From Lachnospiraceae bacterium AC2031 (lineage in GTDB: Bacteria; Bacillota; Clostridia; Lachnospirales; Lachnospiraceae), in contig JIAB01000001.1 of the NCBI GenBank assembly GCA_000687975.1, positions 1,426,001 to 1,490,000 of the forward strand: 64,000 nt of DNA, given 5' to 3'. The notes under the pieces were generated by a model. That model saw nothing but the letters and a program-made list of their open reading frames with translations. It did no database searches and was not told where the DNA came from. Made by a program: the position numbers and the translations under genes. Shown here piece by piece: positions 4,446 through 50,236 of this stretch (position 1 is the stretch's first letter; every line of letters begins with the position of its first letter).

Positions 4446-7400
4446 CTATGGCTCCCATTCGCCATCATTGTTTACCCAGTATCCATCTACGTACTGGTTG
4501 TATACTCGGTAACCATCAGATCCGAAATAGTAGCACTTTCCATTAATCCATAGCCACTGACTTACAGGATACCAGCCAGATGCATCTTCATACCAGAACT
4601 GGCCATCTTTTTCTCCCCAGCCGCCGCCATAGTAAGTTTCTACCCATGCGCCGTCTGATCCCAGCCAGAATCCATCTCTATATTCTGAGTAATCCATGTA
4701 GCCATCTGATGTGAAGTAATACCACTTGCCATCTATCTTCTGCCACTGGCTTGATGGATACCATCCATCCTCATCCTGATACCACCAGCCTGTGCTATCC
4801 TGATACCATTTACCCTGTGGCTTATATGTTGCATTTCCTTCAGAATCATACCACTGACCATCAACCCATTCAGTTCTGTAAGGGCTCTGAGTTTCAGTTG
4901 GTACTTCTTCGCTTGAATTATCTTCAGTATTTTCTTCAACCTCTGGAGTCACATCAGTTTCCTTTGGAGTCTCTTTTGGTTCCTCCTTTGGCTCGTCCTT
5001 TGGTTCGTCCTTTGGCTGTTCTTTAATTATAGATTCGATACATTTTGCTTCTGAATCAAAATGATTAGCATCACCTACAACCTTGTACCATACATAATAG
5101 GTTCCCGCGTCGGTAGCTGTAGGGATGGTTGTGGTATAAATGTTATCCGCAGGGACAGTAGTGGCATTTTCGCCAAGCGCATACCACATTTCTCCGCCTA
5201 CCAGCGTCGATTTATCCTCGGTTACCAACGGTTTCTCAGTACCATCATATGTACGATTGTTCACTGTAATGGTAGATGAGGTAGCATTCGTCCTGTTAAT
5301 CGTAAACTTCCAGTCCTCGCCATGTAAAACAGCGGTAGTTGCGTTGTAGTTATCGCCTTCGGTCACTGTAATTCCCACATAGTAGGTGCCAACATTCACA
5401 GGTTCAGCCTCAGTACTGCATGCCACATCGCTGTAATATTTCACTGTCACCTCGCCCATTCCTTTAGCGGATGATACTGCCGTAACTGTTGCAGACTTAG
5501 CTGTACCGTCATAGTTGAGATCTGACGGTGCTGTGAAAACAAAATCGTTAGCATTAGGAGTAATTTTGCCTATCGTAAACTTCCAATCCTCACCATGTAA
5601 AACAGCGGCAGCTGCGTTATAGTTATCGCCTTCAGTCACTGTAATTCCCACATAGTAAGTGCCAACATTAACAGGTTCAGCCTCAGTACTGCATGCCGCG
5701 TCGCTGTAATACTTCACTGACACTGTGCCCATTCCCTTAGCAGTGGATGCTGCCGTAACTGTTGCAGATTTGGCAGTGTCGTCGTAGTCAAGATCTGCCG
5801 GTGCTGCGTAGATAAAGTCGCTGGCAGTAGGATTTATTTTGCAGATCGTAAACTTCCAGTCCTCACCGTGTAAAACAGTGGCAGCCGCGTTGTAGTTGTC
5901 GCCTTCGGTCACTGTAATACCCACATAGTAAGTTCCGGCATTCTTAGGTACAGCCACTGTAGTACATGCTGCGTCACTGTAATACTTCACCGTCACTGCA
6001 CCTATGCCGGTAATGCCTGACGCTGCCGTAACTGTTGCAGACTTAGCTGTACCGTCATAGTTGAGATCTGACGGTGCTGCGTAGGTAAAGTCGCTGGCAG
6101 CAGGATTTATTTTGCCTATCGTAAACTTCCAGTCCTCACCATGTAAAACAGCGGTAGTTGCGTTATAGTTATCGCCTTCGGTCACTGTAATTCCCACATA
6201 GTAAGTGCCAACATTAACAGGTTCAGCCTCAGTACTGCATGCCACATCGCTGTAATATTTCACTGTCACCTCGCCCATTCCTTTAGCGGATGATACTGCC
6301 GTAACTGTTGCAGACTTAGCTGTACCGTCATAGTTGAGATCTGACGGTGCTGTGAAAACAAAATCGTTAGCATTAGGAGTAATTTTGCCTATCGTAAACT
6401 TCCAATCCTCACCATGTAAAACAGCGGCAGCTGCGTTATAGTTATCGCCTTCAGTCACTGTAATTCCCACATAGTAAGTGCCAACATTAACAGGTTCAGC
6501 CTCAGTACTGCATGCCGCGTCGCTGTAATACTTCACTGACACTGTGCCCATTCCCTTAGCAGTGGATGCTGCCGTAACTGTTGCAGATTTGGCAGTGTCG
6601 TCGTAGTCAAGATCTGCCGGTGCTGCGTAGATAAAGTCGCTGGCAGTAGGATTTATTTTGCAGATCGTAAACTTCCAGTCCTCACCGTGTAAAACAGTGG
6701 CAGCCGCGTTGTAGTTGTCGCCTTCGGTCACTGTAATACCCACATAGTAAGTTCCGGCATTCTTAGGTACAGCCACTGTAGTACATGCTGCGTCACTGTA
6801 ATACTTCACCGTCACTGCACCTATGCCGGTAATGCCTGACGCTGCCGAAACTGTTGCAGATTTGGCAGTGTCGTCGTAGTCAAGATCTGCCGGTGCTATG
6901 TAAGTAAAGTCGCTGGCAGAAGGATTTACTTTGCAGATCGTAAACTTCCAGTTCGAATCATGAAGAACCGAGGTGATTGCATTGTAGTTGTCGCCTTCGG
7001 TCACAGTAATGCCAACATAGTATGTTCCAACATTTTTCGGGTTTTCTACCACGTCTGTGCATGCTGCGTCACTGTAATACTTCACCGTCACATTGCCCAT
7101 GCCGGTAACGCCCGATCCCGGAACAACCGTAGCAGTTTTGTCGGTGCCGTCGTAACCGCGACTTGAAGGTGCCGTGAAGTTAAAATCGTCGGCAGTTGGG
7201 GTTGCCTTCCCAATCGTAAACTGCCAGCTTGAATCGTGCAGAACAGTAGAAACTGCGCTGTAGTTATCGCCCTCGGTCACTGTAATGCCAACATAGTAGG
7301 TACCTACGTTGGTCGGACTTCCCACAAGCTCAGCAGTACACTCTGGGTTGCTATAATACTTCACTGTCACCTGACCCATGCCGGTAACGCCTTCTTTTGG

Positions 7401-10331
7401 CACGACAGTCGCAGTCTTTGCGGTACCGTCATAGGTAAGATCAGACGGTGCTGAATAGGTGAAGTCGCTAACAACGGGCGTTAGCGCGGTAGACGCAAAT
7501 TGTGCGGTAAGATCTAAATCTTCGCTGATATTCTTATACTCCAGCTCCGCATTATCCGAATAAAGAGTTTCTCCATTATACCAACCAGTAAAGGCATAAC
7601 CATCCGCAGGGACTGCGGTGATTGTACCGGTGTTATTTGCAGCGGGATAGAATGAAACCTTTCCACCGGATAGAACATTGATGGATGCACCTTCGTTCAC
7701 ATTTATGAAATAATCGGTTTCAACATTCAATGTGCCTGTTAAATCAAATTCGCTCACTACAAAAACCGAAGTCCCAGAACAATTTCCATAAGTACCGCTG
7801 TTCATCACGACTTTTCCGTTTTCTCCGACATTGAGAGTGAGCTTGGAAGGCGCCGCCTCATTCACCGTAACATCACAGCTTGCGCTCTTTGTGCTGTCAG
7901 CATTGCTGGTGCATGTGACGGTGGCACTGCCCACTGATATGCCCTTAGCATAGACGGTCATGGTTTCGGTGGCTGTATCCAATGTGACCGGAGTTTCACA
8001 AGTTTCGTCGGAATACAACGCCACTGCACTCGCGTTCGTTCCGCCGACGCTCCACTTCACGGTCTTGTCCGTAGCGCCGTCAGGTGTCACGGTAGCATTG
8101 AAAGATACACTACCTCCTACATTGATGGTCTGTGCATCGGTCTTGTCAAGTGACACGACAGTGACTGGCACTGTGCTTACCACCTTCATATAATGCGTCC
8201 GCGTGGTCAGGCTGCTTGTCGTATCCGTCCAGTTTGAATTGTCATTAGATGTAAAAACAGCGAGACCTGTGCCGATGGTCAGCGTACCATTGCCACTGCC
8301 GCCATGCCCCGCGCCGATGCCCATGCCCTTACCTTGACCATCACCACTTGCCGTAACCGTGCCGCCATATATCGTAACAGTTCCTCCTGCTCCACCGTTT
8401 CCGCCACCGATGCCTGCAGCTTTCGTGTTGCCTAGCGCGGTGACTTCGCCGCCGTGGATGGTCACTGTGCCGCCGCTTGCGCCGTTGCTGCCACCAATGC
8501 CTGCGTACTCACCTTCACAGGTATTAATTGTGCCATTTACGGTACCCGCGTACAGTTTGCCTGTGCCAAGTATGGTCTCGTCTATGCTTCCCGCATAGAT
8601 GTTCAACGTATTGCCGCTTGTGACCGTGATTCCCTTACGGGCGATCAGGGTCGCGCCATCGCAGAGAATCAGGTTGACTGTGCCGTTGACAACAAGGCGG
8701 TTTGTTGCTACCGCATTGCCAGATAGGATTACATACCAACCCGCCGGTATCGTAGTGAGTGTGCTGTTCGTCCCCTCTACGAAAGCGGTGTAGCTCGTAC
8801 AGGCTTTCGTTTCCGCCGTGCCGGTCGTCGCGTTGTGGTCGATGTAGGCCACGGGATCGGGAACCGCCGGGAACTGAACTTTCTTATAAGAATTAAGTTC
8901 CTGCCCTGCTTCACTGACTGCAATTGATGCCTTTCCCGTAGTGCCTTCTGTGTCCGTCCATCCGGTTCCGGCAACGGAGTTCTTCACTGTGCCGCTGATG
9001 GCCTGCGAGTTTCCGATGGCACTCAGTGAGCCATCAACGGTAACGTTGCCGGCCCAGATTCCACAACTTCCGGCTTCTCCTGTTCCGCCGCTTGCAGCCA
9101 ACGTTCCACTGCTTCTAACTGTAACATCAGCGGCATAGATACCACAGCTCATAGCGTCTTGAGTCTCGCCACCGCTTGCATTTAACGGCCCATTGATGGT
9201 GACTGCCCTGTCAACATAGATGCCGTAGCTACAGCCGTAGCCGTTAGCAGATTCGCCACCCGTAGTGGTCAATCTGCCACTGCCCTTAATGGTCAGACAG
9301 CCATCGTCAATATAGATACCTTCGGAATTGTCGTCAAGACCATTCGTCTCCGGTCCGGTGACTGTACTGTTTTCTGTCACGTTGATGGTCAGATCTAAGC
9401 CTTTGGCGTAAATAGCGGCATACTCAGAATCATTATTCCCGCCGCTGATATCCGCACCGTTAAGCACAAGAGTAGCAGGGCTGCTTTCGTTCACATCTGT
9501 TGTTGCCGCATTGTCATCTACTGCCGGAGTGAATACTACTGTTGTCCCTTCATCAGTATCGCCCAACACATCGTCCTTGTTCGCGCTCGTCACCTGTACG
9601 CCACCGACCCAGAGGGGATACTCAACGACCGGCGTCAACTCAAATTTCTTCGTGCTAGAATCAAACGTCACCTTGCTCAGGTCGAGCTTTAAAGCGGGAC
9701 GAACACCGAGTTCTTCATCGTAAGTGGGGGACAAAACTACCAAACCCAAATCGCCAGTCACAATCCTCACAAAATCATAATTTCCTTCGTCTAATGATGT
9801 GCGTAGCCACCATCCTTTTTGATAGCCACCATCCGGAAAGTCTGCCTTAAGAACAGCTCTAGGAACCCTTTCTGCTTCATCAACGCTCAGAAGATATAAC
9901 TTGCCGTTCCCCGCATCGTTGATTACAGAAGCAACACCCGAAAAATCTGGATTTCCTGTACCGGCTGTACCCGCAACTATACTATCCAAATAGCCCTTTA
10001 ACGTCGAACTGGCGTAACTGTTGGGTGCAGGATAAGAATCATGGAACTTTGCCGTACCAAAAGCCGTCCCCTGCGCCAGCAATGTAACCGTTCCCGATGT
10101 GGCGCTAGTGGATTCATCTTTGATTATGTACCAATCAAAGCCATTAAAATGGACTACCTTGCCCGGCAATGAATCACTATCATCTTCATCATTTACCAGA
10201 TAACTGCCATAAGGCGTATCCGCATACGCAGTCAGGCTCATCCCCGGAATGATTCCAGTCAATGTACTAAGCACCATCACCAGGCTTAATAAGATACTTA
10301 ATAAACGTTTCATCTTTCTTTCCATAAGCAT
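4446..10331 (-). CDS. Giant repeat-rich surface protein with C-terminal wall-binding repeats
   Basis: Protein of 1961 aa. In order: signal peptide (cut near TAYA, residue 38); a DUF6273-like domain (WWLRTS, VRPALKL, residues 40-235); a beta-helix-like region with many Gly/Thr repeats (GGTVTIHGG, GGTVTIYGG, about 280-690); a BIG2-like Ig domain (about 720-830); an InlB-type repeat (YAFTGWYNGE); eight MBG-like repeats of about 91 aa (about 955-1678) with the conserved core VGTYYVGITVTEGDNY; a Pro/Glu/Lys linker; and Trp/Tyr-rich wall-binding repeats (about 1815-1961). Repeats 3-5 are duplicated as 6-8. This suggests a long stalk that displays the N-terminal domains away from the wall. The ATG at 10331 follows AAGGAG. 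A role in adhesion is inference. Confidence 0.88.
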   Translation of the reverse strand: MLMERKMKRLLSILLSLVMVLSTLTGIIPGMSLTAYADTPYGSYLVNDEDDSDSLPGKVVHFNGFDWYIIKDESTSATSGTVTLLAQGTAFGTAKFHDSYPAPNSYASSTLKGYLDSIVAGTAGTGNPDFSGVASVINDAGNGKLYLLSVDEAERVPRAVLKADFPDGGYQKGWWLRTSLDEGNYDFVRIVTGDLGLVVLSPTYDEELGVRPALKLDLSKVTFDSSTKKFELTPVVEYPLWVGGVQVTSANKDDVLGDTDEGTTVVFTPAVDDNAATTDVNESSPATLVLNGADISGGNNDSEYAAIYAKGLDLTINVTENSTVTGPETNGLDDNSEGIYIDDGCLTIKGSGRLTTTGGESANGYGCSYGIYVDRAVTINGPLNASGGETQDAMSCGIYAADVTVRSSGTLAASGGTGEAGSCGIWAGNVTVDGSLSAIGNSQAISGTVKNSVAGTGWTDTEGTTGKASIAVSEAGQELNSYKKVQFPAVPDPVAYIDHNATTGTAETKACTSYTAFVEGTNSTLTTIPAGWYVILSGNAVATNRLVVNGTVNLILCDGATLIARKGITVTSGNTLNIYAGSIDETILGTGKLYAGTVNGTINTCEGEYAGIGGSNGASGGTVTIHGGEVTALGNTKAAGIGGGNGGAGGTVTIYGGTVTASGDGQGKGMGIGAGHGGSGNGTLTIGTGLAVFTSNDNSNWTDTTSSLTTRTHYMKVVSTVPVTVVSLDKTDAQTINVGGSVSFNATVTPDGATDKTVKWSVGGTNASAVALYSDETCETPVTLDTATETMTVYAKGISVGSATVTCTSNADSTKSASCDVTVNEAAPSKLTLNVGENGKVVMNSGTYGNCSGTSVFVVSEFDLTGTLNVETDYFINVNEGASINVLSGGKVSFYPAANNTGTITAVPADGYAFTGWYNGETLYSDNAELEYKNISEDLDLTAQFASTALTPVVSDFTYSAPSDLTYDGTAKTATVVPKEGVTGMGQVTVKYYSNPECTAELVGSPTNVGTYYVGITVTEGDNYSAVSTVLHDSSWQFTIGKATPTADDFNFTAPSSRGYDGTDKTATVVPGSGVTGMGNVTVKYYSDAACTDVVENPKNVGTYYVGITVTEGDNYNAITSVLHDSNWKFTICKVNPSASDFTYIAPADLDYDDTAKSATVSAASGITGIGAVTVKYYSDAACTTVAVPKNAGTYYVGITVTEGDNYNAAATVLHGEDWKFTICKINPTASDFIYAAPADLDYDDTAKSATVTAASTAKGMGTVSVKYYSDAACSTEAEPVNVGTYYVGITVTEGDNYNAAAAVLHGEDWKFTIGKITPNANDFVFTAPSDLNYDGTAKSATVTAVSSAKGMGEVTVKYYSDVACSTEAEPVNVGTYYVGITVTEGDNYNATTAVLHGEDWKFTIGKINPAASDFTYAAPSDLNYDGTAKSATVTAASGITGIGAVTVKYYSDAACTTVAVPKNAGTYYVGITVTEGDNYNAAATVLHGEDWKFTICKINPTASDFIYAAPADLDYDDTAKSATVTAASTAKGMGTVSVKYYSDAACSTEAEPVNVGTYYVGITVTEGDNYNAAAAVLHGEDWKFTIGKITPNANDFVFTAPSDLNYDGTAKSATVTAVSSAKGMGEVTVKYYSDVACSTEAEPVNVGTYYVGITVTEGDNYNATTAVLHGEDWKFTINRTNATSSTITVNNRTYDGTEKPLVTEDKSTLVGGEMWYALGENATTVPADNIYTTTIPTATDAGTYYVWYKVVGDANHFDSEAKCIESIIKEQPKDEPKDEPKEEPKETPKETDVTPEVEENTEDNSSEEVPTETQSPYRTEWVDGQWYDSEGNATYKPQGKWYQDSTGWWYQDEDGWYPSSQWQKIDGKWYYFTSDGYMDYSEYRDGFWLGSDGAWVETYYGGGWGEKDGQFWYEDASGWYPVSQWLWINGKCYYFGSDGYRVYNQYVDGYWVNNDGEWEP
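5297..6935. repeat. Tandem 819-bp duplication of three MBG repeats
   Basis: The DNA for repeats 6-8 (about 5297-6115) and 3-5 (about 6116-6935) matches at a constant offset of 819 bp, equal to three 273-bp units. The matching strings starting at 5551 and 6370 show the offset. A central block (roughly 5409-6025 against 6228-6844) appears identical base for base, while the edges differ at a few positions. This is a recent higher-order duplication or gene conversion. Confidence 0.85.
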
Positions 10332-10396
10332 TTTTCTCCTTCATACTGTATTTGCGACTGTTAAAGTTGCCGCTAAACCATTATCTATATAAAAGA

Positions 10397-10445
10397 AACC
10401 GCCGAACCTGACAGGGTATACTTACCCCGTCAGACTCCGACGGTT
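10397..10445 (-). terminator. Terminator of the 38-aa peptide gene
   Basis: Interrupted inverted repeat (AACCG...CGGTT outside, CTGAC/GTCAG and GGG/CCC inside), followed on the minus strand by a T-rich stretch (TTTCTTTTATAT). It starts at the stop codon of the small ORF at 10444-10560 and lies 66 bp before the giant gene, so the peptide probably has its own short transcript. Confidence 0.65.
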
Positions 10446-10560
10446 ATCCATCCTGAATGTTGTATTCAGTTTCAAGCGCCCTACTGCCACAAGACGCAAA
10501 AAAAGCGCAGTTATAGCATCTGCTCTGCTCTGCTCTAAGAAGTGTAGGTCTAATCCTCAT
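10444..10560 (-). CDS. Small Cys-containing peptide (38 aa), unknown function
   Basis: Peptide starting MRIRPTLLRAEQ with three cysteines in CYNCAFFASC (C15, C18, C24). A longer frame opens at 10668, but the ATG at 10560 has a very strong ribosome site (AGGGGGTGA, 5 nt before ATG). It is framed by its own SARP-like promoter (10634-10666) and terminator (10397-10445). The same promoter architecture drives the VirB2-like gene at 10834-11283. There is no signal peptide or membrane segment. It could be a signalling peptide, a modified-peptide precursor or a small metal-binding protein; no family is recognised. The packaging of signals makes a real gene likely. Confidence 0.6.
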   Translation of the reverse strand: MRIRPTLLRAEQSRCYNCAFFASCGSRALETEYNIQDG

Positions 10561-10633
10561 GGCAGTCACCCCCTCTTTTCTAGCATTATCCCTAAAAAAG
10601 CGAATAACATCCCCTAACTCATTTTCTATGAAA

Positions 10634-10666
10634 ATTATATCAATTAAAGCGCAACAAAAGTGCAAC
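10634..10666 (-). promoter_or_regulatory. SARP-like activated promoter of the 38-aa peptide
   Basis: On the minus strand: GTTGCAC, 4 nt, GTTGCGC, 9 nt, then a perfect -10 TATAAT at 10634-10639. The heptamers start 11 bp apart. There is no good -35 box, as expected for a promoter that needs an activator. The predicted start lies about 67 nt upstream of the ATG at 10560. It is nearly identical to the site at 11358-11390. Confidence 0.65.
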
Positions 10667-10688
10667 ACAGACTAAGGTTTTCATTAAC

Positions 10689-10730
10689 CGGAAATTTTTC
10701 TCAGCATGTAATTCTATGAAAAAATTTCCG
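10689..10730. repeat. Inverted repeat upstream of the small-peptide promoter
   Basis: CGGAAATTTTT and AAAAATTTCCG, 11-bp perfect arms separated by 20 nt. It lies 23 bp upstream of the SARP-like heptamers and 104 bp downstream of the VirB2-like stop. It could be an operator or a structural element; its function is unknown. Confidence 0.45.
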
Positions 10731-10736
10731 TTATTA

Positions 10737-10775
10737 AAAATGTGACAAACGGCCAATGGCCATCTGTCACATTTT
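10737..10775 (-). terminator. Terminator of the VirB2-like gene (TGTGACA palindrome family)
   Basis: AAAATGTGACA and TGTCACATTTT arms with an inner GGCC-AAT-GGCC stem, followed by TTTTTA on the minus strand. It lies 59 bp downstream of the VirB2-like stop. The outer arms match the palindromes at 3119, 14248 and 45736. Confidence 0.7.
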
Positions 10776-10833
10776 CACAGTATATATATGAATACCCTCT
10801 CCAAAATATTCACGTATAAATACTGTCGTAAGC

Positions 10834-11283
10834 TTACTGTGTTGTTGTCACTTCAATAGTTGTGTTTGTTCCAGCTGTTGCATTATTCATCCGTGTTGTA
10901 AGTGACTCGATTGAAAGCTTAAGTGCTACTATAAGGATAAATATAAGTAAGCATCCAATAAGAGCTGTCTTAAGAGCCTGCTTTCTCTTTTCCTTCTCCT
11001 GTGGCTCCTCAGCAGTTACAAACTTAACACCGAGCATGATGCAGAAGAGAACTCCTCCTGCTCCTACGATTGCAAGAAGTGGATCTACCAATGGATTGAT
11101 AAGCTCCACGATTGATGATACAACACCATCAGAGTTTGCTCCGCCAGATGCGAATGCTGCTCCGCTATATGTAAGTGTAACAACAGCTGCTACCATAGAT
11201 GTTCCTAATGCTTTTGCTGTCATACAAGCCTTACGACTCTTTGAAAGGCTTGTTACGCTTTTCATAATCATGTCGTTTTTCAT
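10834..11283 (-). CDS. VirB2/TrbC-like pilin or small secreted membrane protein
   Basis: Protein of 149 aa with a long basic N-terminus, a hydrophobic stretch ending in AFA (about residues 26-46, a likely signal cleavage), then two further membrane segments (LLAIVGAGGVLFCIMLGVKF and ALIGCLLIFILIVALKL) joined by a charged loop (EEPQEKEKRKQ). This is the layout of VirB2/TrbC pilins and the related conserved membrane proteins of Gram-positive conjugation systems. No other type IV secretion or conjugation gene is in the window, so it is an orphan. It has a SARP-like promoter and its own terminator, so its transcription is tied to the neighbouring kinase/regulator genes. Confidence 0.65.
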   Translation of the reverse strand: MKNDMIMKSVTSLSKSRKACMTAKALGTSMVAAVVTLTYSGAAFASGGANSDGVVSSIVELINPLVDPLLAIVGAGGVLFCIMLGVKFVTAEEPQEKEKRKQALKTALIGCLLIFILIVALKLSIESLTTRMNNATAGTNTTIEVTTTQ

Positions 11284-11357
11284 TCTCCCAATCCTCTTTG
11301 GCTAATTTTTATAATGTCTTTGCTTGTCCTCAAAGCTGTTTTTGTTCTTATGGCTTG

Positions 11358-11390
11358 ATTATAGCAAGGAAAGCGCAACAAAAGCGCAAC
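11358..11390 (-). promoter_or_regulatory. SARP-like activated promoter of the VirB2-like gene
   Basis: On the minus strand: GTTGCGC, 4 nt, GTTGCGC, 9 nt, TATAAT (11358-11363). The direct heptamers are identical and 11 bp apart, the spacing known for SARP activators. The leader to the ATG at 11283 is about 67 nt, almost the same as at the 38-aa peptide gene. No -35 consensus is present. Confidence 0.7.
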
Positions 11391-11420
11391 ACAGATTTAA
11401 AAAAATTTTATTTTTTTCTT

Positions 11421-12620
11421 CTACATCTTAGCTCTTGATGCTGGAATCTTTATGATAGCTTCTGTTCCTTCATCTGATTTATTGAGAATCATCTCGCCAT
11501 CGCAGAGAATCTTTAGTCTGGTTTTAACATTTGCCGTTCCTACGCTCTTATGTTTCTTCTGAGTTGAAAGCTCGGTCTGTTTGCCATGGCCATCGTCAAT
11601 TACCTTAACGAAGACATAGCCTCCCTCTTCTTTTGTCTCTATGCGGATGATATCACCTGCTTCGCTCATTCCTATACCATAATAGATGGCATTTTCCACC
11701 AAGGGCTGTACCGTAAGGGCAGGAATTCTGAAGTCGGTTATTTCAAAATTCTTTTCAAGCTCAAAATTACGGGATGGAAGGATCTTGGAAAGCGCCACAT
11801 AGGCGTCCACATGCTCCATCTCCTGTAAGAAAGGAATCATTTTCTCGTTAGTCAGCGCCTCAAAATTCATTCTAAGATACTGTGAAAAGTTGAGTATCGC
11901 TGGTTTTACAGCCGTTGTATCCTCGTCCGAAAGAAGAGCGATCTGCTGAAGCGCATTATAAATAAAATGGGGATGAATCTGTTCCATAAGCAGCGACACC
12001 TTATTCTCAGAAAGCTCAACCTGCTTATCCAGAAGTTCACGTTCCGTATCAGCCTGATAACCGAAGAATACTATAAGTAGCATCATAGTAAGTCCTGCCC
12101 CCTGAAGTCTCAGGTCGTAGTAAAGCATTCCCGAAAGAGCTGTACATATTGGAAAAAGTGTTGCCAGCAGGAATCCAATGATCTCACCGATTGACTTAGA
12201 AGAAATATAGAGCATAACAATAAGAACTATATTCTGTGCCGTAAATACAACGCTGATAAGATATCCGCCTCGTCCATAGACCACCATCATCATAACGAGT
12301 ACTGATACTATTGTCTGAAGGAACATCCAGAAGAATCCGTCCCAGTTCTGGCCCGCATCACGTTCAGTTTCTATAAAGTAAAGGGTGAACATAGGAATGA
12401 CCAGAGAATATACCACGTAGGCATATGATACATAATCCGCTATCTGGAACATAAGACCGCCAAGACATATAGCAACACACGAAATGAAGTACCTGATTCT
12501 TCGACTTCTGTTCTTAATCTGGAACGCCACAATAAAAACCACAATCGACAGTACAATACAGATGAGCGTCGAGATGTGATTGATCAGCGATATCACAATT
12601 TCCAGCGGAATACTTACCAT
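11421..12620 (-). CDS. LytS-type sensor histidine kinase
   Basis: Protein of 399 aa with six to seven membrane segments in residues 5-190, a short linker, a His_kinase (PF06580-type) box QIHPHFIYNALQQI with the phospho-acceptor His near residue 217, and an HATPase domain (QPLVENAIYYGI, DDGHGK). This class autophosphorylates and passes phosphate to LytTR or similar regulators. It is the last gene of the operon 14655-11421, after the membrane protein, with an AATGAGTC palindrome in the gap. The likely partner is one of the three regulators in the block. The signal is unknown; the multi-span sensor could detect a peptide or membrane state. Confidence 0.88.
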   Translation of the reverse strand: MVSIPLEIVISLINHISTLICIVLSIVVFIVAFQIKNRSRRIRYFISCVAICLGGLMFQIADYVSYAYVVYSLVIPMFTLYFIETERDAGQNWDGFFWMFLQTIVSVLVMMMVVYGRGGYLISVVFTAQNIVLIVMLYISSKSIGEIIGFLLATLFPICTALSGMLYYDLRLQGAGLTMMLLIVFFGYQADTERELLDKQVELSENKVSLLMEQIHPHFIYNALQQIALLSDEDTTAVKPAILNFSQYLRMNFEALTNEKMIPFLQEMEHVDAYVALSKILPSRNFELEKNFEITDFRIPALTVQPLVENAIYYGIGMSEAGDIIRIETKEEGGYVFVKVIDDGHGKQTELSTQKKHKSVGTANVKTRLKILCDGEMILNKSDEGTEAIIKIPASRAKM

Positions 12621-12631
12621 ATATACTCTCC

Positions 12632-12669
12632 AATGAGTCGATTTGGCTCTGAGCCCTTTTGACTCACTT
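12632..12669. repeat. AATGAGTC palindrome, copy 1
   Basis: AATGAGTC-GATTT-GGCTC-T-GAGCC-CTTTT-GACTCA hairpin in the gap between the membrane protein and the LytS-type kinase; it includes the stop codon of the former. Member of the seven-copy family described in the findings. Confidence 0.75.
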
Positions 12670-13353
12670 CTGATTATTGTAGGAGTAAATGTAGTAATCG
12701 TAACTGAAGTTCTTTACTCTTACATACATAATGATCATTATTGCAACATTAAATATATAAACTATAGAGATAAAAATCACCGCGAAAACGGAAAGGTTCT
12801 CCGTTCCATTTTCTAGACTTATTACCACATTCAGCATTATCTGAGAGGCAAATGCGGCTATTATATAAACTTCTGTTCGAAGACAGCCCAAACGCTTAGA
12901 TTTCTTTCCCATCTCTGTATATGCATCCGCAGCTCCACGAAGTGTAAAGATCAGCATCATAAGCAGGCAGGCAGTTGGTACCATTTTAGAAAAGAGAAGT
13001 ATGATATCAAACCATTTCGGTATACCTTCAAATTCAGAGATCCATTTCATTACATATACAACAGCCTCTGTAATTATATAGGCTCCTGTCATATTACAGG
13101 ATACACCGAACCAGCGATTGATTATCGAAAGGTGATATAGACATGACAAAATGCCGATTATAGCCATATATGTAAAGAAGTAACACAGCATGAACAAGGA
13201 ATCGTTCATCTGGTACATAGCGGCCTCATCGACATCACCTGAAATAAACATCTGAATCAAAGGAGACAGCATGCTTGTCATGATTGCTACGATCATAGCA
13301 AATATAACATACGGAAAGAGCCGTAGTGTTTTATAGTCTAACTTTTCTTTCAT
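12664..13353 (-). CDS. Multi-spanning membrane protein of the kinase operon, unknown function
   Basis: Protein of 229 aa with about six hydrophobic segments and short polar loops; no known family is recognised. The ATG at 13353 comes one base after the TAA of the upstream SARP-type regulator, so the two are translationally coupled. The position between a response regulator and its kinase suggests an accessory sensor or an exporter of the signal, but this is inference from context only. Confidence 0.7.
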   Translation of the reverse strand: MKEKLDYKTLRLFPYVIFAMIVAIMTSMLSPLIQMFISGDVDEAAMYQMNDSLFMLCYFFTYMAIIGILSCLYHLSIINRWFGVSCNMTGAYIITEAVVYVMKWISEFEGIPKWFDIILLFSKMVPTACLLMMLIFTLRGAADAYTEMGKKSKRLGCLRTEVYIIAAFASQIMLNVVISLENGTENLSVFAVIFISIVYIFNVAIMIIMYVRVKNFSYDYYIYSYNNQK

Positions 13354-13354
13354 A

Positions 13355-14146
13355 TTATTTCATAATGAGTTCGCCGAGAGTCATCTCAGCCCATGAAAAC
13401 TGGATCATATATTCGCCCATGAAGGAATTGACAGCGTGAGTATCACCCTGAAGATAGCTAAGATAATCGCAGTCAATAAGAGAGCAGTCCACACCGTAAG
13501 CGTTCCAGCCCTTTACAAAGACATTTGCTGCCCCAACCTTAGCCAGATCATCTCTAAGACTTGAGAGGAATACACGAAGCTGCTTTTTTAACGCACGGTC
13601 TTCGTCTCTATCCTCAAAAAGAACTCCGCAGAGTTCACCGATGGAGCAAAGTGCTCCTCTTCTATCTATCATATAGGCAAGGATTTCCTTGCTTTTACTT
13701 CTCTTAAACTTAATTGGATGGTCGTCCTTATCGAAAACCTCAAAATTTCCAAAGCACTGAACTCTGATAAGACCCTTGCGTTCCGCAACTATAGGAGTAC
13801 GAAGGTTATCAAGCTCACGTTCAAGTGCCTCTTTTGTGGCAGGTTTAAGAACGAATCCACTGGCATGAGACTGAAAAGCCTGGTAAGCAAACTTTTCATG
13901 ACCAGTTACAAATACAATATTGGTATTAGGTGAAAGCTTCTTCACCTCCATAGCCATCTCAAGACCTGACATTTCCGGCATTTCTATATCCAGCCATGCC
14001 ACATCAGGCTTTGCTTCGTCAGCAAATGCAAGCGCCTCTTTGATATCCGAAAACGGTTTATGTGTGCCGGACGGATCAATCTCACCCATAATCTTAGTAA
14101 TTTCTTCAGCAACATTTGGCTGATCATCGATAGAAAATGTAATCAT
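13355..14146 (-). CDS. Response regulator with SARP/BTAD-like DNA-binding output domain
   Basis: Protein of 263 aa. Residues 1-120 are a receiver with the phospho-acceptor Asp in AWLDIEMPEMSG and the switch Lys in FVLKPATKE. Residues 135-240 form a winged-helix domain of the SARP/BTAD N-terminal type (RVQCFGNFEVF, KRSKSKEILAYMIDRRGA, LKKQLRVFLSSLRDDL). The start at 14146 follows AGGGGG; the frame opens further upstream at 14206 but within a hairpin. SARP proteins bind direct heptamer repeats spaced 11 bp, and three such sites lie within 4 kb. It is the best candidate to activate the pilin-like gene, the 38-aa peptide and its own operon. Confidence 0.85.
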   Translation of the reverse strand: MITFSIDDQPNVAEEITKIMGEIDPSGTHKPFSDIKEALAFADEAKPDVAWLDIEMPEMSGLEMAMEVKKLSPNTNIVFVTGHEKFAYQAFQSHASGFVLKPATKEALERELDNLRTPIVAERKGLIRVQCFGNFEVFDKDDHPIKFKRSKSKEILAYMIDRRGALCSIGELCGVLFEDRDEDRALKKQLRVFLSSLRDDLAKVGAANVFVKGWNAYGVDCSLIDCDYLSYLQGDTHAVNSFMGEYMIQFSWAEMTLGELIMK

Positions 14147-14175
14147 CCCCCTATCCTCTCTCGATGCTATGGAAC

Positions 14176-14206
14176 GTGACACCAGTGCCCTGCTCACTAC
14201 TGTCAC
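14176..14206 (-). promoter_or_regulatory. Hairpin in the leader of the SARP-type regulator, inner segment complementary to its neighbour
   Basis: GTGACA...TGTCAC stem enclosing the 13-mer GTGCCCTGCTCAC (14185-14197, plus strand). That 13-mer is the exact reverse complement of 14261-14273 in the next hairpin. It lies 30 nt before the start of the SARP-type regulator on the minus strand. Confidence 0.6.
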
Positions 14207-14247
14207 ACCTTGTTACACCCATAAAAAGTATTTCAAAACCCTTCTCA

Positions 14248-14287
14248 AAATGTGAAAGTGGTGAGCAGGGCACCCGCCATCACATTT
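14248..14287 (-). promoter_or_regulatory. Second hairpin (AAATGTGA family) with complementary inner segment
   Basis: AAATGTGA...TCACATTT arms with an inner GGTG/CACC stem and the 13-mer GTGAGCAGGGCAC at 14261-14273. It lies between the stop of the single-domain regulator (14293) and the SARP-type regulator. It could be a terminator-like element that rearranges by pairing with 14185-14197. Confidence 0.6.
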
Positions 14288-14292
14288 ATCGA

Positions 14293-14655
14293 TTAGTGAA
14301 AATCGGCTAAGACATGAGTTACTTCGCGGGTCAGCGTCTCCTGGTTTACTGGTTTCAGGAGGTAGCCATCCGCATGCACATCAAATGCATCTATCGCATA
14401 CTTTTCGTACGCAGTTACAAAAATTATCTTAATATCAGGTTTCACCTCGCGAAGCTTCTTCACAAGATTAATCCCGTTAATATCTGGCATGTTTATATCT
14501 AGCATAGCAATATCGACCGGGTTCTTAGTGCACCAATCAAGTGCAGACCTGGATTTGGTAAAACCCTTTATATCTGTAAGTTCTGGAATATTCTCACAAA
14601 GCTTGGTTAGATAATCCAGACCTGTTTTTTCATCATCAACTAAAACAGCCTTCAT
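14293..14655 (-). CDS. Single-domain response regulator (receiver only)
   Basis: Protein of 120 aa consisting of a CheY-like receiver only: acidic pair VDDE, phospho-acceptor Asp in AMLDINMPDING, Thr in IFVTAYEKYAI and Lys in YLLKPVNQE. No output domain follows. The start at 14655 (MKAVLVDDEK) sits 6 nt after AGAGG; an ATG three bases earlier is possible. First gene behind the SARP-like promoter at 14706-14737, upstream of the SARP-type regulator. It probably acts as a phosphate sink, relay or adaptor between the two kinases of the block. Confidence 0.85.
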   Translation of the reverse strand: MKAVLVDDEKTGLDYLTKLCENIPELTDIKGFTKSRSALDWCTKNPVDIAMLDINMPDINGINLVKKLREVKPDIKIIFVTAYEKYAIDAFDVHADGYLLKPVNQETLTREVTHVLADFH

Positions 14656-14705
14656 CATAATCCTCTTTGCTATGCCGCACTCCGGCATTTACGCGACTAA
14701 AAAAG

Positions 14706-14737
14706 ATTATAATAAAGGCTGTCCAACAAATGTCCTA
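14706..14737 (-). promoter_or_regulatory. SARP-like promoter of the response regulator operon
   Basis: On the minus strand: TAGGACA, 4 nt, TTGGACA, 8 nt, then TATAAT (14706-14711). The heptamers start 11 bp apart. The heptamer sequence differs from the GTTGCGC pair at 10.6 and 11.4 kb, so it may be bound by the other SARP-type regulator (14763-15599) or with lower affinity. The start codon of the first gene is 51 bp downstream. Confidence 0.5.
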
Positions 14738-14762
14738 CTAATATAATATCTATGTAATTTTT

Positions 14763-15599
14763 CTATGAAAGTCTTGAAGTAATAAGCCCTTCCGTAACCG
14801 TGCCCCATGAATACTGATTCATATATTCACCACGATAATGATTTATCACCTCGATATCCCCTGCCAGGAATTTAAAAAGATCGCAATCCATCTTCTCTGG
14901 ATCGATCCTGAGAAGTCCCTTCTCAACACTGAGAATATCCCCGATCTTATACTCTTTCAGGGTCTCACGTAAACTTCTGATAATGACATCAATTCTTTTC
15001 TGGCCCTTACGGTCATACACATCATCCTCCCAAAGCACCGAGAATGCAGTAGCTCTGGATATAGTTCCGCCCTCACGATCAACAAGATACGCAAGAAGCT
15101 CCTTGGATTTAGCTCTTTTAAAGCTAACAACTGTACCATCTACAAATATATCAAACTCTCCGAAGGTTCTTACAACCACCTTTCTGGATGGATCATTCTC
15201 CATTAATTCAACTTCATCCACTGGCTTCTCAATATGTCTGTTTCTTCTTTCAACAGCGTACTGTACCTCTCTTTCCAGCCTTTCCTTATTTATCGGCTTC
15301 AGAAGATATCCAGTAGCATGAAGTCCAAAGGCCTCCAGCGCGTAGTCTGAATAGCCTGTTAGAAACATAATGGATGCGTAAGGGTGACAGTTCTTGATCC
15401 GTCTTGCCATCTCGATTCCATTTATCTCTGGCATATCTATATCAAGAATCGCAATATCCACCTGATTTTCCGAAATGTGACTCAGGGCTTCATTTGCATC
15501 AGAAAACCCCTGCACATCAGTAAGCATCGGCAGTTCCTTGCACATCTTCACAGTCATATTTAAGATTAACTCTTCATCATCAATGCAAATAAGTTTCAT
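14763..15599 (-). CDS. Response regulator with SARP/BTAD-like output domain
   Basis: Protein of 278 aa, paralogous to 13355-14146. Receiver in residues 1-120 (IDDEE; Asp in AILDIDMPEING; Lys in YLLKPINKE), then a SARP/BTAD-like winged-helix domain (VRTFGEFDIFVDG, KRAKSKELLAYLVDREGG, RIDVIIRSLRETL). Its ATG overlaps the stop of the upstream kinase gene by 4 bp (ATGA), so kinase 15596-16942 is its natural partner. It is a DNA-binding activator candidate for the 11-bp-spaced direct repeats nearby. Confidence 0.87.
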   Translation of the reverse strand: MKLICIDDEELILNMTVKMCKELPMLTDVQGFSDANEALSHISENQVDIAILDIDMPEINGIEMARRIKNCHPYASIMFLTGYSDYALEAFGLHATGYLLKPINKERLEREVQYAVERRNRHIEKPVDEVELMENDPSRKVVVRTFGEFDIFVDGTVVSFKRAKSKELLAYLVDREGGTISRATAFSVLWEDDVYDRKGQKRIDVIIRSLRETLKEYKIGDILSVEKGLLRIDPEKMDCDLFKFLAGDIEVINHYRGEYMNQYSWGTVTEGLITSRLS

Positions 15600-16942
15600 T
15601 CTTTATCCTTATCTGTTTCTGGAATACGCATAGTAACAAGGGTACCTTCGCCAGGTGTACTCTCTATTGCAAAAGTACCTTTACACTGATCCTCAATACG
15701 CTGCTTAACATTTAGAATACCAATGTGAGAACCTGATTGTCCAGAAGGCGTGTTTATATCAAAACCTATTCCATTATCCTGTACGGTAATCTTAAAGAAT
15801 CCTTCTTCCTTATGAGCACCGATCACGATCCTGCCGTCCCTCTTCGAACGAACGCCGTGTCTGATGGCATTTTCTACCATAGGCTGAATAGTGAGAGCAG
15901 GAAGATTAAAGTCTGTATCCTTTACCTCATCGATGTCATACACAACCCTTATAAAAGGGAAACGAATCTGTTCAATATCCACGTAAACCCTTGTGTGTTC
16001 CAATTCCTTGTTAAATGGAATCAAATCCGTCTCATTTAATGAATCGATATTTTGTCTCAGATATGTACCAAACTTCTCCACAGTATCTGCCGCCCTCTCT
16101 GGATCCGAATGGCACAGAGCCTGTATAGTAGATAAGGTATTATATAAGAAATGAGGCTGTATCTGAGAAACCATGATCTGAATTCTCTGCTGCTCCATAA
16201 TATCACCCTCATGTTCGCGTACGAAATTAAGGTGAATCCATACATAATAGAACAGATTACAGCTTACAATAGACATAGTGAGAAATGTTATCGGAAGATA
16301 AGGAGAATAGATCTTAGAATCCATAAGCACCGCTCCCAAGATAACAATAACGCACCAAACTGGAATCAGTCCTTCCAGACCGTAACGATACCTGGCAACC
16401 TCAAACTTCCAGTCTTTTTCAATTTCAGGCATATAGTCATATCTATCATTTCGACCTGTGAGTTCAATAAAAGAATCTGCAGAAAGCCATAATAAATACA
16501 CGAGTAACAAAGCACTTATTACGTGACAGCTATAGCCAATCGGACCACGCTTAAAGTTGTTTTCTGCAGTTATAGTGAAGCATATATCCGTAAATAACGC
16601 AGAAAGATGAATTAAAGTATTAATTCCAATAAGAACCCAGGCAATGATCAGCTTCTGCTTCTTCTTTATAAGATAAAGCCACATAACTATAATAACTGGG
16701 CGAAGACAATAACCGATAATAGCAGTGATCAGACGTTCTTTTACCTTATCAGGATCAAGAGCAAACATAGTATCCCAGTAATTCTGAATGATCAGTAAAG
16801 TCGTAAGTGCGGTGTTAATAAGAATTACTGTTGAATGTCTCTTGCTGATGTAAGGATCAATAAAAACAGCAAATGCGAGACCCATTACCTGCAAAAATAT
16901 AGTAAAATATATAACCACTTCTAAAACAAGAATATCAGACAT
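15596..16942 (-). CDS. LytS-type sensor histidine kinase
   Basis: Protein of 448 aa with about six membrane segments in the first 240 residues, then the His_kinase box QIQPHFLYNTLSTIQ with the acceptor His near residue 271, and an HATPase domain (QPMVENAIRHGV, VQDNGIGFD, GSHIGILNVKQRI). It is paralogous to the kinase at 11421-12620 and paired by a 4-bp overlap with the SARP-type regulator. Ribosome site GGGAAAG before the ATG. The signal is unknown. Confidence 0.9.
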   Translation of the reverse strand: MSDILVLEVVIYFTIFLQVMGLAFAVFIDPYISKRHSTVILINTALTTLLIIQNYWDTMFALDPDKVKERLITAIIGYCLRPVIIVMWLYLIKKKQKLIIAWVLIGINTLIHLSALFTDICFTITAENNFKRGPIGYSCHVISALLLVYLLWLSADSFIELTGRNDRYDYMPEIEKDWKFEVARYRYGLEGLIPVWCVIVILGAVLMDSKIYSPYLPITFLTMSIVSCNLFYYVWIHLNFVREHEGDIMEQQRIQIMVSQIQPHFLYNTLSTIQALCHSDPERAADTVEKFGTYLRQNIDSLNETDLIPFNKELEHTRVYVDIEQIRFPFIRVVYDIDEVKDTDFNLPALTIQPMVENAIRHGVRSKRDGRIVIGAHKEEGFFKITVQDNGIGFDINTPSGQSGSHIGILNVKQRIEDQCKGTFAIESTPGEGTLVTMRIPETDKDKE

Positions 16943-17036: not shown

Positions 17037-18485
17037 TTACCTGCCACAATCTTCATCGCAGCCGTCACAGTCTGTTCCACCCGCTGTTGCACCTTCCACT
17101 GGCGCAAGTCCCAGCGCATCATGTGCAACCTGAATCATAATAGCACACTCAATTCTCTTTCGGAAGAGTTCACAGCCATATTCGTAGATTCCCTTAACAT
17201 CGCCTGTAGCATGATAAGCATTTGCAGCACATCCGCCTGAGCAATACAGCTGAGCCCAGCAATCCAGACATTCTGGTCTTGCATAAGCATTACAATAACG
17301 GAACTCATCCTGTTTTTCTACATTAGAAACCCCATTCCAGATATCACCCAGCTTATACTTCTCATCACCAACAAACTGGTGACAAGGGTAAAGGTCACCC
17401 CAAGGAGTAACCGCCATATACTCAGTACCTGAACCACATCCAGATATTCTCTTATAAATACATGGGCCTTCCTTAAGGTCCAGCATGTAGTGGTAAAATG
17501 TGAATCCCTCGCCTTTTAAATCACGAGATAACATTTCCTTTGCCAGAATCTCATACTGTTCCTTAAGAACAGGAAGATCCTCTTCAGTAAGTGCCAGTGG
17601 ATCAGATGGGTTACAAACAACCGGCTCCATAGACAGCTCTTTAAAGCCCAGATCCGCCATAGCAAAGATATCTTTAGTAAAATCAGTATTAAGATGAGTG
17701 AATGTACCACGCATATAGTAATTCTTACCGCCACGTGACTCAACCAGCTTCTGGAACTTTGGTACTATTTTATCATAGCTTCCCGTTCCTGCATAATCCA
17801 CACGGGTGCGGTCATGAACTTCCTTACGTCCGTCCAGACTGAGAACCACGTTACTCATCTCTTTATTACAGAAGTCAATGACTTCATCATCAATCAGCAT
17901 ACCATTTGTGGTCAAAGTAAAACGGAAATTCTTGCCTGCCTCCCTCTCGATAGAACGAGCATATCTAACAATATCCTTGCACACATCCCAGTTCATCAGA
18001 GGCTCGCCACCGAAGAAATCCACCTCCAGATTATGTCTGGTTCCGCTATGCTCCACCAGAAAATCTATAGCGCGCTTTCCGACCTCAAGACTCATAACAG
18101 CTCTTTCACCATTATACTTACCTTGAGCCGCAAAGCAGTACTCGCAATTAAGATTGCAAGTATGGGAAACATGAAGACATAGAGCCTTTATAACATCGCC
18201 ACTACGCTTCTTAAACTCGCCTGCAAGAGGGGCATACTCATTTGGTGTATACAGCTTCTTCATATCACGAAGAGTTCTAACGTCATCAATGCAGAGACGC
18301 ACCTCCTCCTCGGTCACATCCTCCCTGTCTCCATACCTCTTAAGTATTTCTTCTACTATGTCGTCCTCAGACTTGTCCGGAAACATTTCGATTATATCGT
18401 ACGCAACATCGTCCACGCTGTGAACCGATCCCGAACACGTATCCAGCACTATATTATATCCATTTAACTTATACTGATGTACCAT
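17037..18485 (-). CDS. scfB: SCIFF (ranthipeptide) radical SAM maturase
   Basis: Protein of 482 aa. N-terminal peptide-binding region (MVHQYKLNGYN), a radical SAM core with the CX3CX2C cluster site (CNLNCEYCF, near residue 103), and a C-terminal SPASM domain with Cys in CHQF, CLDCWAQLYCSGGC and YGCELF. This family forms thioether cross-links in the SCIFF peptide by joining Cys to alpha carbons. The substrate gene lies directly upstream. The start at 18485 follows AGAGGA; an alternative frame start at 18515 lacks a site. The extra tail CDGCDEDCGR is Cys-rich beyond the SPASM set and may be a lineage feature. Confidence 0.93.
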   Translation of the reverse strand: MVHQYKLNGYNIVLDTCSGSVHSVDDVAYDIIEMFPDKSEDDIVEEILKRYGDREDVTEEEVRLCIDDVRTLRDMKKLYTPNEYAPLAGEFKKRSGDVIKALCLHVSHTCNLNCEYCFAAQGKYNGERAVMSLEVGKRAIDFLVEHSGTRHNLEVDFFGGEPLMNWDVCKDIVRYARSIEREAGKNFRFTLTTNGMLIDDEVIDFCNKEMSNVVLSLDGRKEVHDRTRVDYAGTGSYDKIVPKFQKLVESRGGKNYYMRGTFTHLNTDFTKDIFAMADLGFKELSMEPVVCNPSDPLALTEEDLPVLKEQYEILAKEMLSRDLKGEGFTFYHYMLDLKEGPCIYKRISGCGSGTEYMAVTPWGDLYPCHQFVGDEKYKLGDIWNGVSNVEKQDEFRYCNAYARPECLDCWAQLYCSGGCAANAYHATGDVKGIYEYGCELFRKRIECAIMIQVAHDALGLAPVEGATAGGTDCDGCDEDCGR

Positions 18486-18565
18486 AATTCCTCTTTCTAG
18501 AAAAAGAAACGCCACCTTGATGATAGGCGGCGTATCCTTCTTAGTTTAATTTGTGCGAAGCCTTA

Positions 18566-18715
18566 TTATTTCTCAGACTTGTTCTCACATTTCTGATTTG
18601 CTACGCCACAGCTTGTCTTACAAGCACTCTGGCATGATGTCTGGCACTCGCCACATCCACCATTCTTAGCGCTCTCACAAAGATCTCTTGTCTCAAGTGT
18701 CTTTATTCTTTCCAT
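18566..18715 (-). CDS. scfA: SCIFF precursor peptide (six-cysteine in forty-five)
   Basis: Peptide of 49 aa with the SCIFF core CGECQTSCQSACKTSC and a seventh Cys at residue 13. Residues 21, 24, 28, 32, 36 and 43 are the six family cysteines. Good ribosome site AAAGGAG before the ATG. It lies 80 bp upstream of its maturase, which cross-links it into a ranthipeptide. The mature peptide's role is not established; the pair is nearly universal in Clostridia. Confidence 0.95.
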   Translation of the reverse strand: MERIKTLETRDLCESAKNGGCGECQTSCQSACKTSCGVANQKCENKSEK

Positions 18716-50015: not shown

Positions 50016-50150
50016 CCTTCACTCCTTATTAATATTTTTGACACCATATGACATACGGATCGCTCCATTTCTTACGAAATTTTCACAATCCTAGAAACAT
50101 TCGGAAACCGCTATTTTTCTAAGAAAAATGCTATTTCCTCATGTTTCAGC

Positions 50151-50208
50151 GTGTCATAAGGTCAACATGCTTTTCCTGCAAGCAGGAACGCATTTTGACT
50201 TTTGACAC
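50151..50208. repeat. Long imperfect palindrome
   Basis: GTGTCA...TGACAC, GTCA/TGAC, ATGC/GCAT and TTCCTGC-AA-GCAGGAA stacked stems with small internal loops. It lies between the OmpR-type regulator and the 48390-50015 gene. Either a folded 5' leader element or a repeat. Confidence 0.6.
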
Positions 50209-50236
50209 TTATGTCATATTATATTAACAATAAAAA

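Follow-up and report, generated by a model that had tools for sequence, protein, structure and literature searches.

The closest described relatives of the system considered here come from several fields. ActII-ORF4 is a Streptomyces activator of the Streptomyces antibiotic regulatory protein (SARP) family; in the pho box, 7-bp repeats with 4 A/T-rich bp replace the -35 element; and in Legionella, type IV effector regulons are under the two-component control of PmrA and CpxR. Clostridioides difficile reportedly carries a putative type 4C secretion system, with VirB4- and VirD4-like ATPases proposed for secretion. The present analysis concerns a stretch of 64,000 nucleotides from Lachnospiraceae bacterium AC2031 (positions 1426001-1490000 of one contig of 3,191,482 bases; hereafter, the window), in which promoters with 11-bp direct repeats stand beside the genes of two response regulators, RR1 and RR2. 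According to our estimate, the probability is roughly three in four that this locus encodes a two-tier two-component cascade controlling a secretion regulon, the machine of which was not found in the AC2031 genome.

The receiver plus Trans_reg_C architecture of RR1 and RR2 is that of the OmpR/PhoB family. They depart from it in that their sequences are little similar, the protein is extended at its C-terminus by ~45 residues (GEYM..YSWAE), and the heptamer is another one. As in Legionella, one response regulator would coordinate a secretion machine and scattered substrate genes, but in monoderm rumen Lachnospiraceae, with substrates lacking recognisable families, a two-tier cascade and two box types. 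The putative C. difficile system is alike in having VirB4/VirD4 ATPases in a Clostridia species. SARPs such as Streptomyces AfsR, as described in PMC10936776, are winged-helix activators whose tandem repeats, 11 or 22 bp apart, overlap the -35 region, with the 3' repeat located 8 bp from the -10 element, against 9 bp in the promoters studied here. RR1 and RR2 differ from SARPs in carrying a receiver domain in place of BTAD, which was not detected; moreover, the box hosts are low-GC Clostridia, and the targets are secretion genes, not antibiotic clusters. Finally, the large proteins considered below resemble the Bartonella BID effectors and the Xanthomonas XVIPCD proteins, which, according to PMC10025392, combine variable N-terminal parts with a shared C-terminal domain, the basic tail serving as a secretion signal in the BID case. 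The domain shared by the large proteins, by contrast, matched no Pfam family where it was scanned, and it was found within the genus only (30/61 genomes, 0/38 others).

The features of the locus, all on the minus strand, are as follows.

15596..16942, minus: sensor kinase 1, LytS-type His_kinase (PF06580, 9e-22)
14763..15599, minus: RR2, receiver plus OmpR-type winged helix, proposed box 2 reader (Pfam, co-occurrence)
14706..14738, minus: promoter C with box 2, GTAGGAC-N4-GTTGGAC-N9-TATAAT, preceding the REC and RR1 genes
14293..14658, minus: REC, receiver-only response regulator, first gene behind promoter C (PF00072, 6e-25)
13355..14146, minus: RR1, receiver plus OmpR-type winged helix, proposed box 1 reader (domains, orthologues, co-occurrence)
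12664..13353, minus: 229-aa membrane protein, no Pfam family, synteny kept in the relatives' loci read
11421..12620, minus: sensor kinase 2, LytS-type His_kinase (PF06580)
11358..11390, minus: promoter B with box 1, GTTGCGC-N4-GTTGCGC-N9-TATAAT, preceding the pilin-like gene
10834..11283, minus: VirB2-like pilin-like protein of type IV secretion systems (T4SS), 149 aa, matching T4SS_pilin (PF18895, 1e-10) and, above cut-off, a pilin family of integrative and conjugative elements (ICE; NF045849)
10634..10666, minus: box 1 promoter A, GTTGCAC-N4-GTTGCGC-N9-TATAAT, before the 38-aa open reading frame (ORF) and the surface-protein leader
10444..10560, minus: leader ORF of 38 aa with Cys, probably starting at 10560, no Pfam family
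10385..10446, minus: strong hairpin resembling a terminator, past the 38-aa ORF and ahead of the surface-protein gene (z -8.7)
4446..10331, minus: secreted surface protein of 1961 aa, containing MBG and choline-binding repeats, encoded behind promoter A

From the sequence data we infer the following scheme. Kinase 1 would phosphorylate RR2, which would bind box 2, a tandem of GTTGGAC heptamers with an 11-bp spacing located 9 bp from the -10 element, and turn on the genes of REC, RR1, the 229-aa membrane protein and kinase 2. Kinase 2 would in turn phosphorylate RR1, and RR1, bound to tandem GTTGCGC heptamers (box 1) at the place of the -35 element, would recruit RNA polymerase to these promoters, which have no such element of their own. 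The box 1 regulon of relatives comprises a type IV secretion locus on the chromosome, with genes of the pilin, VirD4, a VirB6-like protein and VirB4, and, dispersed elsewhere, large proteins that lack Sec signals, many of them ending in a shared C-terminal domain and a Lys/Arg-rich tail; in AC2031, the circuit would be kept at the pilin gene, at the leaders of two surface proteins, at the operon of a third kinase and response regulator (RR3) and at a few other genes.

Promoter A reads GTTGCAC-TTTT-GTTGCGC (10649-10666), 9 bp, TATAAT (10634-10639), and promoter B reads GTTGCGC-TTTT-GTTGCGC (11373-11390), 9 bp, TATAAT (11358-11363). In its best register, promoter C consists of GTAGGAC (14732-14738), N4, GTTGGAC (14721-14727), N9 and TATAAT (14706-14711), so that the 11-bp repeat spacing and the 9-bp gap are common to all three and the heptamer of promoter C differs. 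Two box 1 matches with ≤3 mismatches were found in the window, against a shuffle mean of 0.07. A model of box 1 (A3/R1, hereafter R1) was built from 50 sites with ≤2 mismatches, none from the AC2031 genome, for which TAnnnT at N9 was required; the consensus of these sites is TTTGTTGCGCTTTTGTTGCGCTTTnnnTGnTATAAT. Promoters A and B scored 37.1 and 37.0 bits with R1 (E 8e-9), the top two in the 3.19-Mb genome. Promoter C obtained only 3.0 bits, and a different box (box 2) must therefore be assigned to it; a single motif for the three promoters was rejected on this ground. Thus, the single plan proposed in the original prediction stands as regards the exact repeats, their 11-bp spacing and the perfect TATAAT, its 8-9 bp spacer is corrected to 9 bp at all three sites, and in place of one motif there are two boxes with, apparently, two readers. 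Chance repeats were likewise rejected, since 270 box 1 matches (the sum over 61 same-genus genomes, AC2031 included; the sites read are among the matches listed) were obtained against 1 for the reversed pattern.

Because TAnnnT at N9 was a selection filter, R1 is unusable as evidence for this gap. A separate set of 49 sites, picked by the 18-mer box alone (≤2 mismatches) without the N9 filter, and including own-genome sites and one place entered as two overlapping sites, had TAnnnT exactly 9 bp downstream in 44 cases, whereas no other offset had it in more than 10. By eye, promoters A and B have no canonical -35 hexamer 16-18 bp upstream of the -10 element, as had been predicted. Their predicted leader lengths of ~67 nt, under the assumption of a start 7 nt past the -10 element, also agree with the start codons, located at box offsets 106 and 107.

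In the whole AC2031 genome, GTTGCNC-N4-GTTGCNC was matched 62 times with ≤2 mismatches, and the reversed pattern 21 times. R1 returned six sites at E < 0.001 and a weak seventh, with seven more matches at E > 1 (L and G numbers are our handles for loci and genomes):

Ranks 1-2: promoters A and B, 37 bits, before the 38-aa ORF with its leader and before the pilin gene, respectively
Rank 3: 25883, 34.7 bits, a short ORF and hairpin, then another large secreted protein (L004)
Rank 4: 2161080, 34.0 bits, a LytS kinase, then the third response regulator RR3 (L003, L051)
Rank 5: 2660263, 24.2 bits, no clear gene close behind (L255)
Rank 6: 1255733, 22.2 bits, a 154-aa protein (L006)
Weak seventh: 1586996, 12.9 bits, E 0.35, a small hydrophobic protein (L008, by eye)

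It had been proposed that the motif should be sought genome-wide, where its frequent occurrence at unrelated promoters would have spoken against a regulon; it is not common there, and the sites in relatives form a coherent regulon. According to a profile search, supplemented by full-length matches, the genome contains three regulators with the RR1/RR2-type DNA-binding domain, two in the window and the third behind the L003 box.

The assignment of the boxes to their readers is made mainly because of their co-occurrence across the 61 genomes, RR1/RR2 membership being assigned by hand from profile-search lists. RR1 and box 1 occurred together in 30 genomes, RR1 alone in none, box 1 alone in 10 and neither in 21; RR2 and box 2 occurred together in 14, RR2 alone in none, box 2 alone in one (G017) and neither in 46 (Fisher p 5e-9 and 7e-13, respectively, uncorrected for relatedness). 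All 17 genomes with RR1 and without RR2 contained box 1, and none contained box 2 at ≤2 mismatches; the sole RR2-only genome, G013 (80% complete), had box 2 and no box 1. Named members of the group include Lachnospiraceae bacteria NE2001, C6A11, AC2029 and YSB2008 and Eubacterium ruminantium FB3002. These distributions support the earlier claim that the regulators read these boxes, and indicate that RR2 probably reads box 2 and RR1 box 1. In AC2031, NE2001, RUG12023 and LC2019, the RR2-like gene is followed by box 2; the box occupied the position of promoter C in L168, L169 and L180, not in L170.

Because box 2 stands downstream of RR2 and upstream of REC/RR1, this arrangement looks like an RR2-to-RR1 cascade more than the feedback on its own operon that had been suggested. 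A box 1 promoter (2161083) does precede the kinase 3/RR3 operon in AC2031; however, the box is absent at four relatives' RR3 loci with the kinase in view (L395, L396, L397 and L399), and the notion that RR3 reads its own box was rejected. In L399 (G023), the RR3 orthologue is seemingly split across two open stretches.

As to the nature of the regulators, the receiver domain PF00072 was recognised in RR1 (2e-20) and RR2 (5e-23). The Trans_reg_C winged helix was above the Pfam cut-off in RR2 (26.2 bits), weak in RR1 alone and weakly matched in 17 of 20 RR1 orthologues (best 0.00097), and the closest solved winged helices by sequence were those of SaeR (PDB, E 0.007) and other OmpR-type regulators. 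The receiver residues D6/D7, D52, T80 and K100 were invariant in all 20 RR1 orthologues; the 19 aligned to the AC2031 protein were 70-93% identical to it, with receiver residues intact, the highest value being that of the NE2001 protein. Thus, the phosphoacceptor-Asp receiver and Trans_reg_C helix typical of the OmpR/PhoB family are both present, and of the SARP hallmarks, the OmpR-type winged helix and the 11-bp direct repeats (11 bp by definition of the box) were found, with the 9-bp gap mentioned above. A BTAD domain C-terminal to the helix was not: in searches by sequence, there was no match at E ≤1 in the 20 RR1 orthologues, nor at 0.1 in RR2. Because of the latter result, RR1 and RR2 are better filed as OmpR/PhoB-type response regulators working like SARPs; the "SARP" label given originally suits the promoter geometry, not the protein. 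Since the spacing of SARP promoters resembles that of the boxes, the activation mode of the box promoters is plausibly the same.

The prediction that the pilin-like gene is a target was also supported. In a survey of 50 of the 80 RR1 loci (L168-L217; box sites starting with GT, ≤3 mismatches), a pilin gene lay near RR1 in 33 of the 50 named loci and was boxed in 25 of these 33, and seven of the eight unboxed loci showed, by eye, a diverged box with N9. In NE2001, C6A11 and YSB2008, box 1 is followed by the pilin and then by VirD4 and further secretion genes, which in C6A11 and NE2001 encode VirB4 (TraG P-loop), a membrane protein of the VirB6-like kind, and STAS, SpoIIE or HATPase proteins (VirD4 PF02534 3e-54 in NE2001; P-loop_TraG 4e-18 in C6A11). 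Hence VirD4, VirB4 and a VirB2-like pilin, orthologous to the T4SS_pilin match of AC2031, which together define a T4SS, stand in one locus each in C6A11 and NE2001. Among the 61 genomes, RR1 and VirD4 occurred together in 28, RR1 alone in two, VirD4 alone in none and neither in 31, the two RR1 genomes not counted for VirD4 being G030, which has a 97-residue edge fragment, and AC2031 itself. In a genome of another family (G070), a VirD4 61% identical to the NE2001 protein was found, and the regulator profile search of that genome gave no match. In NE2001, box 1 also stands before genes whose small products have leaders of the double-glycine type and, by eye, resemble bacteriocins (L131, L135); a box 1 promoter of C6A11 is followed, after ~320 nt, by what is by eye a type IV prepilin-like gene (L141).

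In relatives, box 1 also precedes genes of large proteins (~250-1500 aa; listed for sites starting with GTT only) spread over many contigs. A Pfam scan of 29 distinct box-driven proteins (30 entries, L145:737-3124 being entered twice) gave SpoIIE in L154 as the sole match above cut-off; Nif11, PI3/PI4-kinase (L144, 1.3e-5) and B domain matches were below it, as were the two matches among eight more box-driven proteins scanned. Pfam identities were accordingly rejected for nearly all of the proteins scanned. The 994-aa box-driven protein L144:1125-4106 of C6A11, to which the sub-threshold PI3/PI4-kinase match belongs, has a DRHxxN motif within the matched region. A C-terminal domain of ~250 residues was common to 8 of the 43 first long ORFs behind a box (nine of the 43 run off the fetched stretch, and one of the eight matches over the last third only). 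In a protein profile search, the domain was present in 26 of the 30 genomes with RR1 and in 4 of the 31 without it. When the order was reversed and the protein was taken first, a box was found ≤300 nt upstream of 31 of 39 untruncated domain genes and of none of the 39 reversed upstreams; this set was drawn from the first 40 domain matches among those listed once the domain-defining G042 and G043 had been set aside, with one gene present twice (L360, L363) and some G022 and G056 genes being near-copies of G043 genes.

The domain ends a median of 21 residues from the C-terminus and is followed by a Lys/Arg-rich tail; in 35/40 domain proteins, the final 40 residues carry a net charge of +4 or more. 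A hydrophobic N-terminus was detected in 2/40 by a crude measure. The mean tail charge of 18 boxed non-membrane proteins, so classed by a crude hydrophobicity filter, was +5.4 against -0.3 for 65 controls (p 7e-8). Known T4SS effectors carry basic C-terminal signals and domain-plus-tail signals, according to a review (PMC10025392). The large proteins with the shared domain and basic tail are most likely the substrates of the secretion machine. Alternatively, the locus might be an ordinary conjugative element with its remnants, moving DNA, with the large proteins as unrelated cargo, and its VirD4, VirB4 and pilin families are indeed those of conjugation machines. We consider this unlikely, given that the box targets are scattered over many contigs, that many of the large proteins share the C-terminal domain and basic tails, that the pilin so often accompanies RR1, and that no relaxase family was recognised among the 18 locus proteins scanned, these being a part of the locus ORFs, without a relaxase search of the genomes.

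Several points count against the proposed cascade and its secretion regulon. The p-values given above take no account of common descent or of gaps in the draft genomes, the cut-off for RR1 (E 1e-56) was picked after viewing the list, and the VirD4 count takes in broken or contig-edge copies (G010, G040, G059). Ten of the 31 RR1-less genomes hold 1-6 box 1 matches; other paralogues of these regulators are present in eight of these ten, and in G039 and G052 none was found at E 1e-10. With 3 mismatches allowed, a box 2 match appears in three genomes with RR1 and without RR2 (G010, G012, G046), and the RR2-like gene of L170 has no box 2, which is present at 4/5 of the loci read. The domain occurs in four RR1-less genomes (G011, G021, G039, G045) and is missing from four with RR1 (G000, G007, G036, G046). 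Eight of the 39 domain genes lack a near box, though six of them have another, boxed gene ahead of them in the same orientation (none in L393 and L394). Of the 68 ORFs taken from these loci as controls, 9 pass the box threshold, all nine being, by eye, large or secreted proteins, with one counted twice. Moreover, the kinases and the membrane protein adjoin RR1 in the loci read, and co-occurrence alone cannot single out the DNA-binding partner. The last point, together with the box 1 matches in genomes without RR1, would suit another explanation, namely that the boxes are read by an unseen transcription factor travelling with the T4SS locus and that RR1 and RR2 regulate other things. This seems very improbable to us: each of the two boxes tracks its own regulator (14/14 and 30/30), the RR2-only genome has box 2 only, the box geometry suits a tandem binder of the OmpR type, and two of the three such regulators of AC2031 adjoin boxes, with the third directly behind one.

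Returning to the cascade, its fate in AC2031 differs from that in the relatives. No match was obtained in this genome for either of the ATPases expected of a T4SS, VirD4 and VirB4 (the VirB4 search being positive in 4/4 other genomes), or, by profile search, for the shared C-terminal domain. The regulators, kinases, membrane protein, pilin and strong boxes were retained. The simplest account is that the machine was lost and the switch partly rewired. A rival reading, in which the boxes are decaying leftovers of the lost secretion system and no longer matter, would fit the missing VirD4, VirB4 and domain as well as the number of sites, about seven by the model here versus up to 23 simple matches in a relative. 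It is nevertheless a doubtful explanation, since both boxes of the window reach 37 bits, RR1 has kept its receiver residues and shares 93% identity with its NE2001 counterpart, and the box before kinase 3/RR3, absent at the four relatives' loci, suggests upkeep and rewiring.

Behind promoter A, the 38-aa ORF lies in a leader of ~300 nt with a hairpin, ahead of the 1961-aa surface-protein gene; by eye, a similar hairpin is present in a C6A11 leader, and box-driven leaders of ~370-490 nt with hairpins precede large secreted proteins in L004, L126 and L152. Since hairpin leaders thus also precede other large secreted proteins, the Cys peptide, originally taken for the product under control, may be only a leader ORF and not the product that matters. 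A known riboswitch in the leader was rejected, as no Rfam match was obtained at gathering thresholds, nor at E ≤1 for 10250-10700. The leaders ahead of three surface-protein genes, in L126, in L152 and in the window (10340-10440), share GCGGC...AACAG.CG.AAATA near the start codon, which is not seen in L004; no Rfam family was found for this stretch.

A wider picture can be drawn with somewhat less than even confidence: in a rumen Lachnospiraceae genus to which Eubacterium ruminantium FB3002 belongs, a chromosomal T4SS would deliver a large, modular arsenal of proteins, marked by a new C-terminal domain and a basic tail, into rival bacteria or rumen protozoa under a GTTGGAC-then-GTTGCGC two-tier cascade, the two boxes being related. 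The AC2031 lineage would have lost the machine and put the switch to use at genes of surface proteins and of a further two-component pair. Among the best-ranked open-access matches of our literature search, no paper on this control system and no description of an effector-type T4SS regulon in gut Firmicutes was found; should the box-driven large proteins be transported, they would constitute such a regulon. The 34-bp signature (11-bp repeat, with 9 bp to the -10 element as a check) can be used to list candidate secretion-regulon genes in uncultured rumen genomes from sequence alone. As natural losses have parted the two regulator/box pairs, their binding specificity is open to direct testing.

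Some further features of the window may be mentioned. The 146-nt gap between REC and RR1 (14147-14292, minus strand) forms a single long near-perfect hairpin (-59.5 kcal/mol, z -6.5), which possibly sets the REC to RR1 ratio or is a repeated element. An SCIFF radical SAM maturase is encoded at 17037-18488 (minus strand; TIGR03974, 754 bits), and a Cys-rich 49-aa ORF just upstream of it (18566-18715, minus strand) resembles its precursor. A Clostridiales-1 small RNA (RF01699, 111.6 bits) is located at 50049-50216 on the minus strand.

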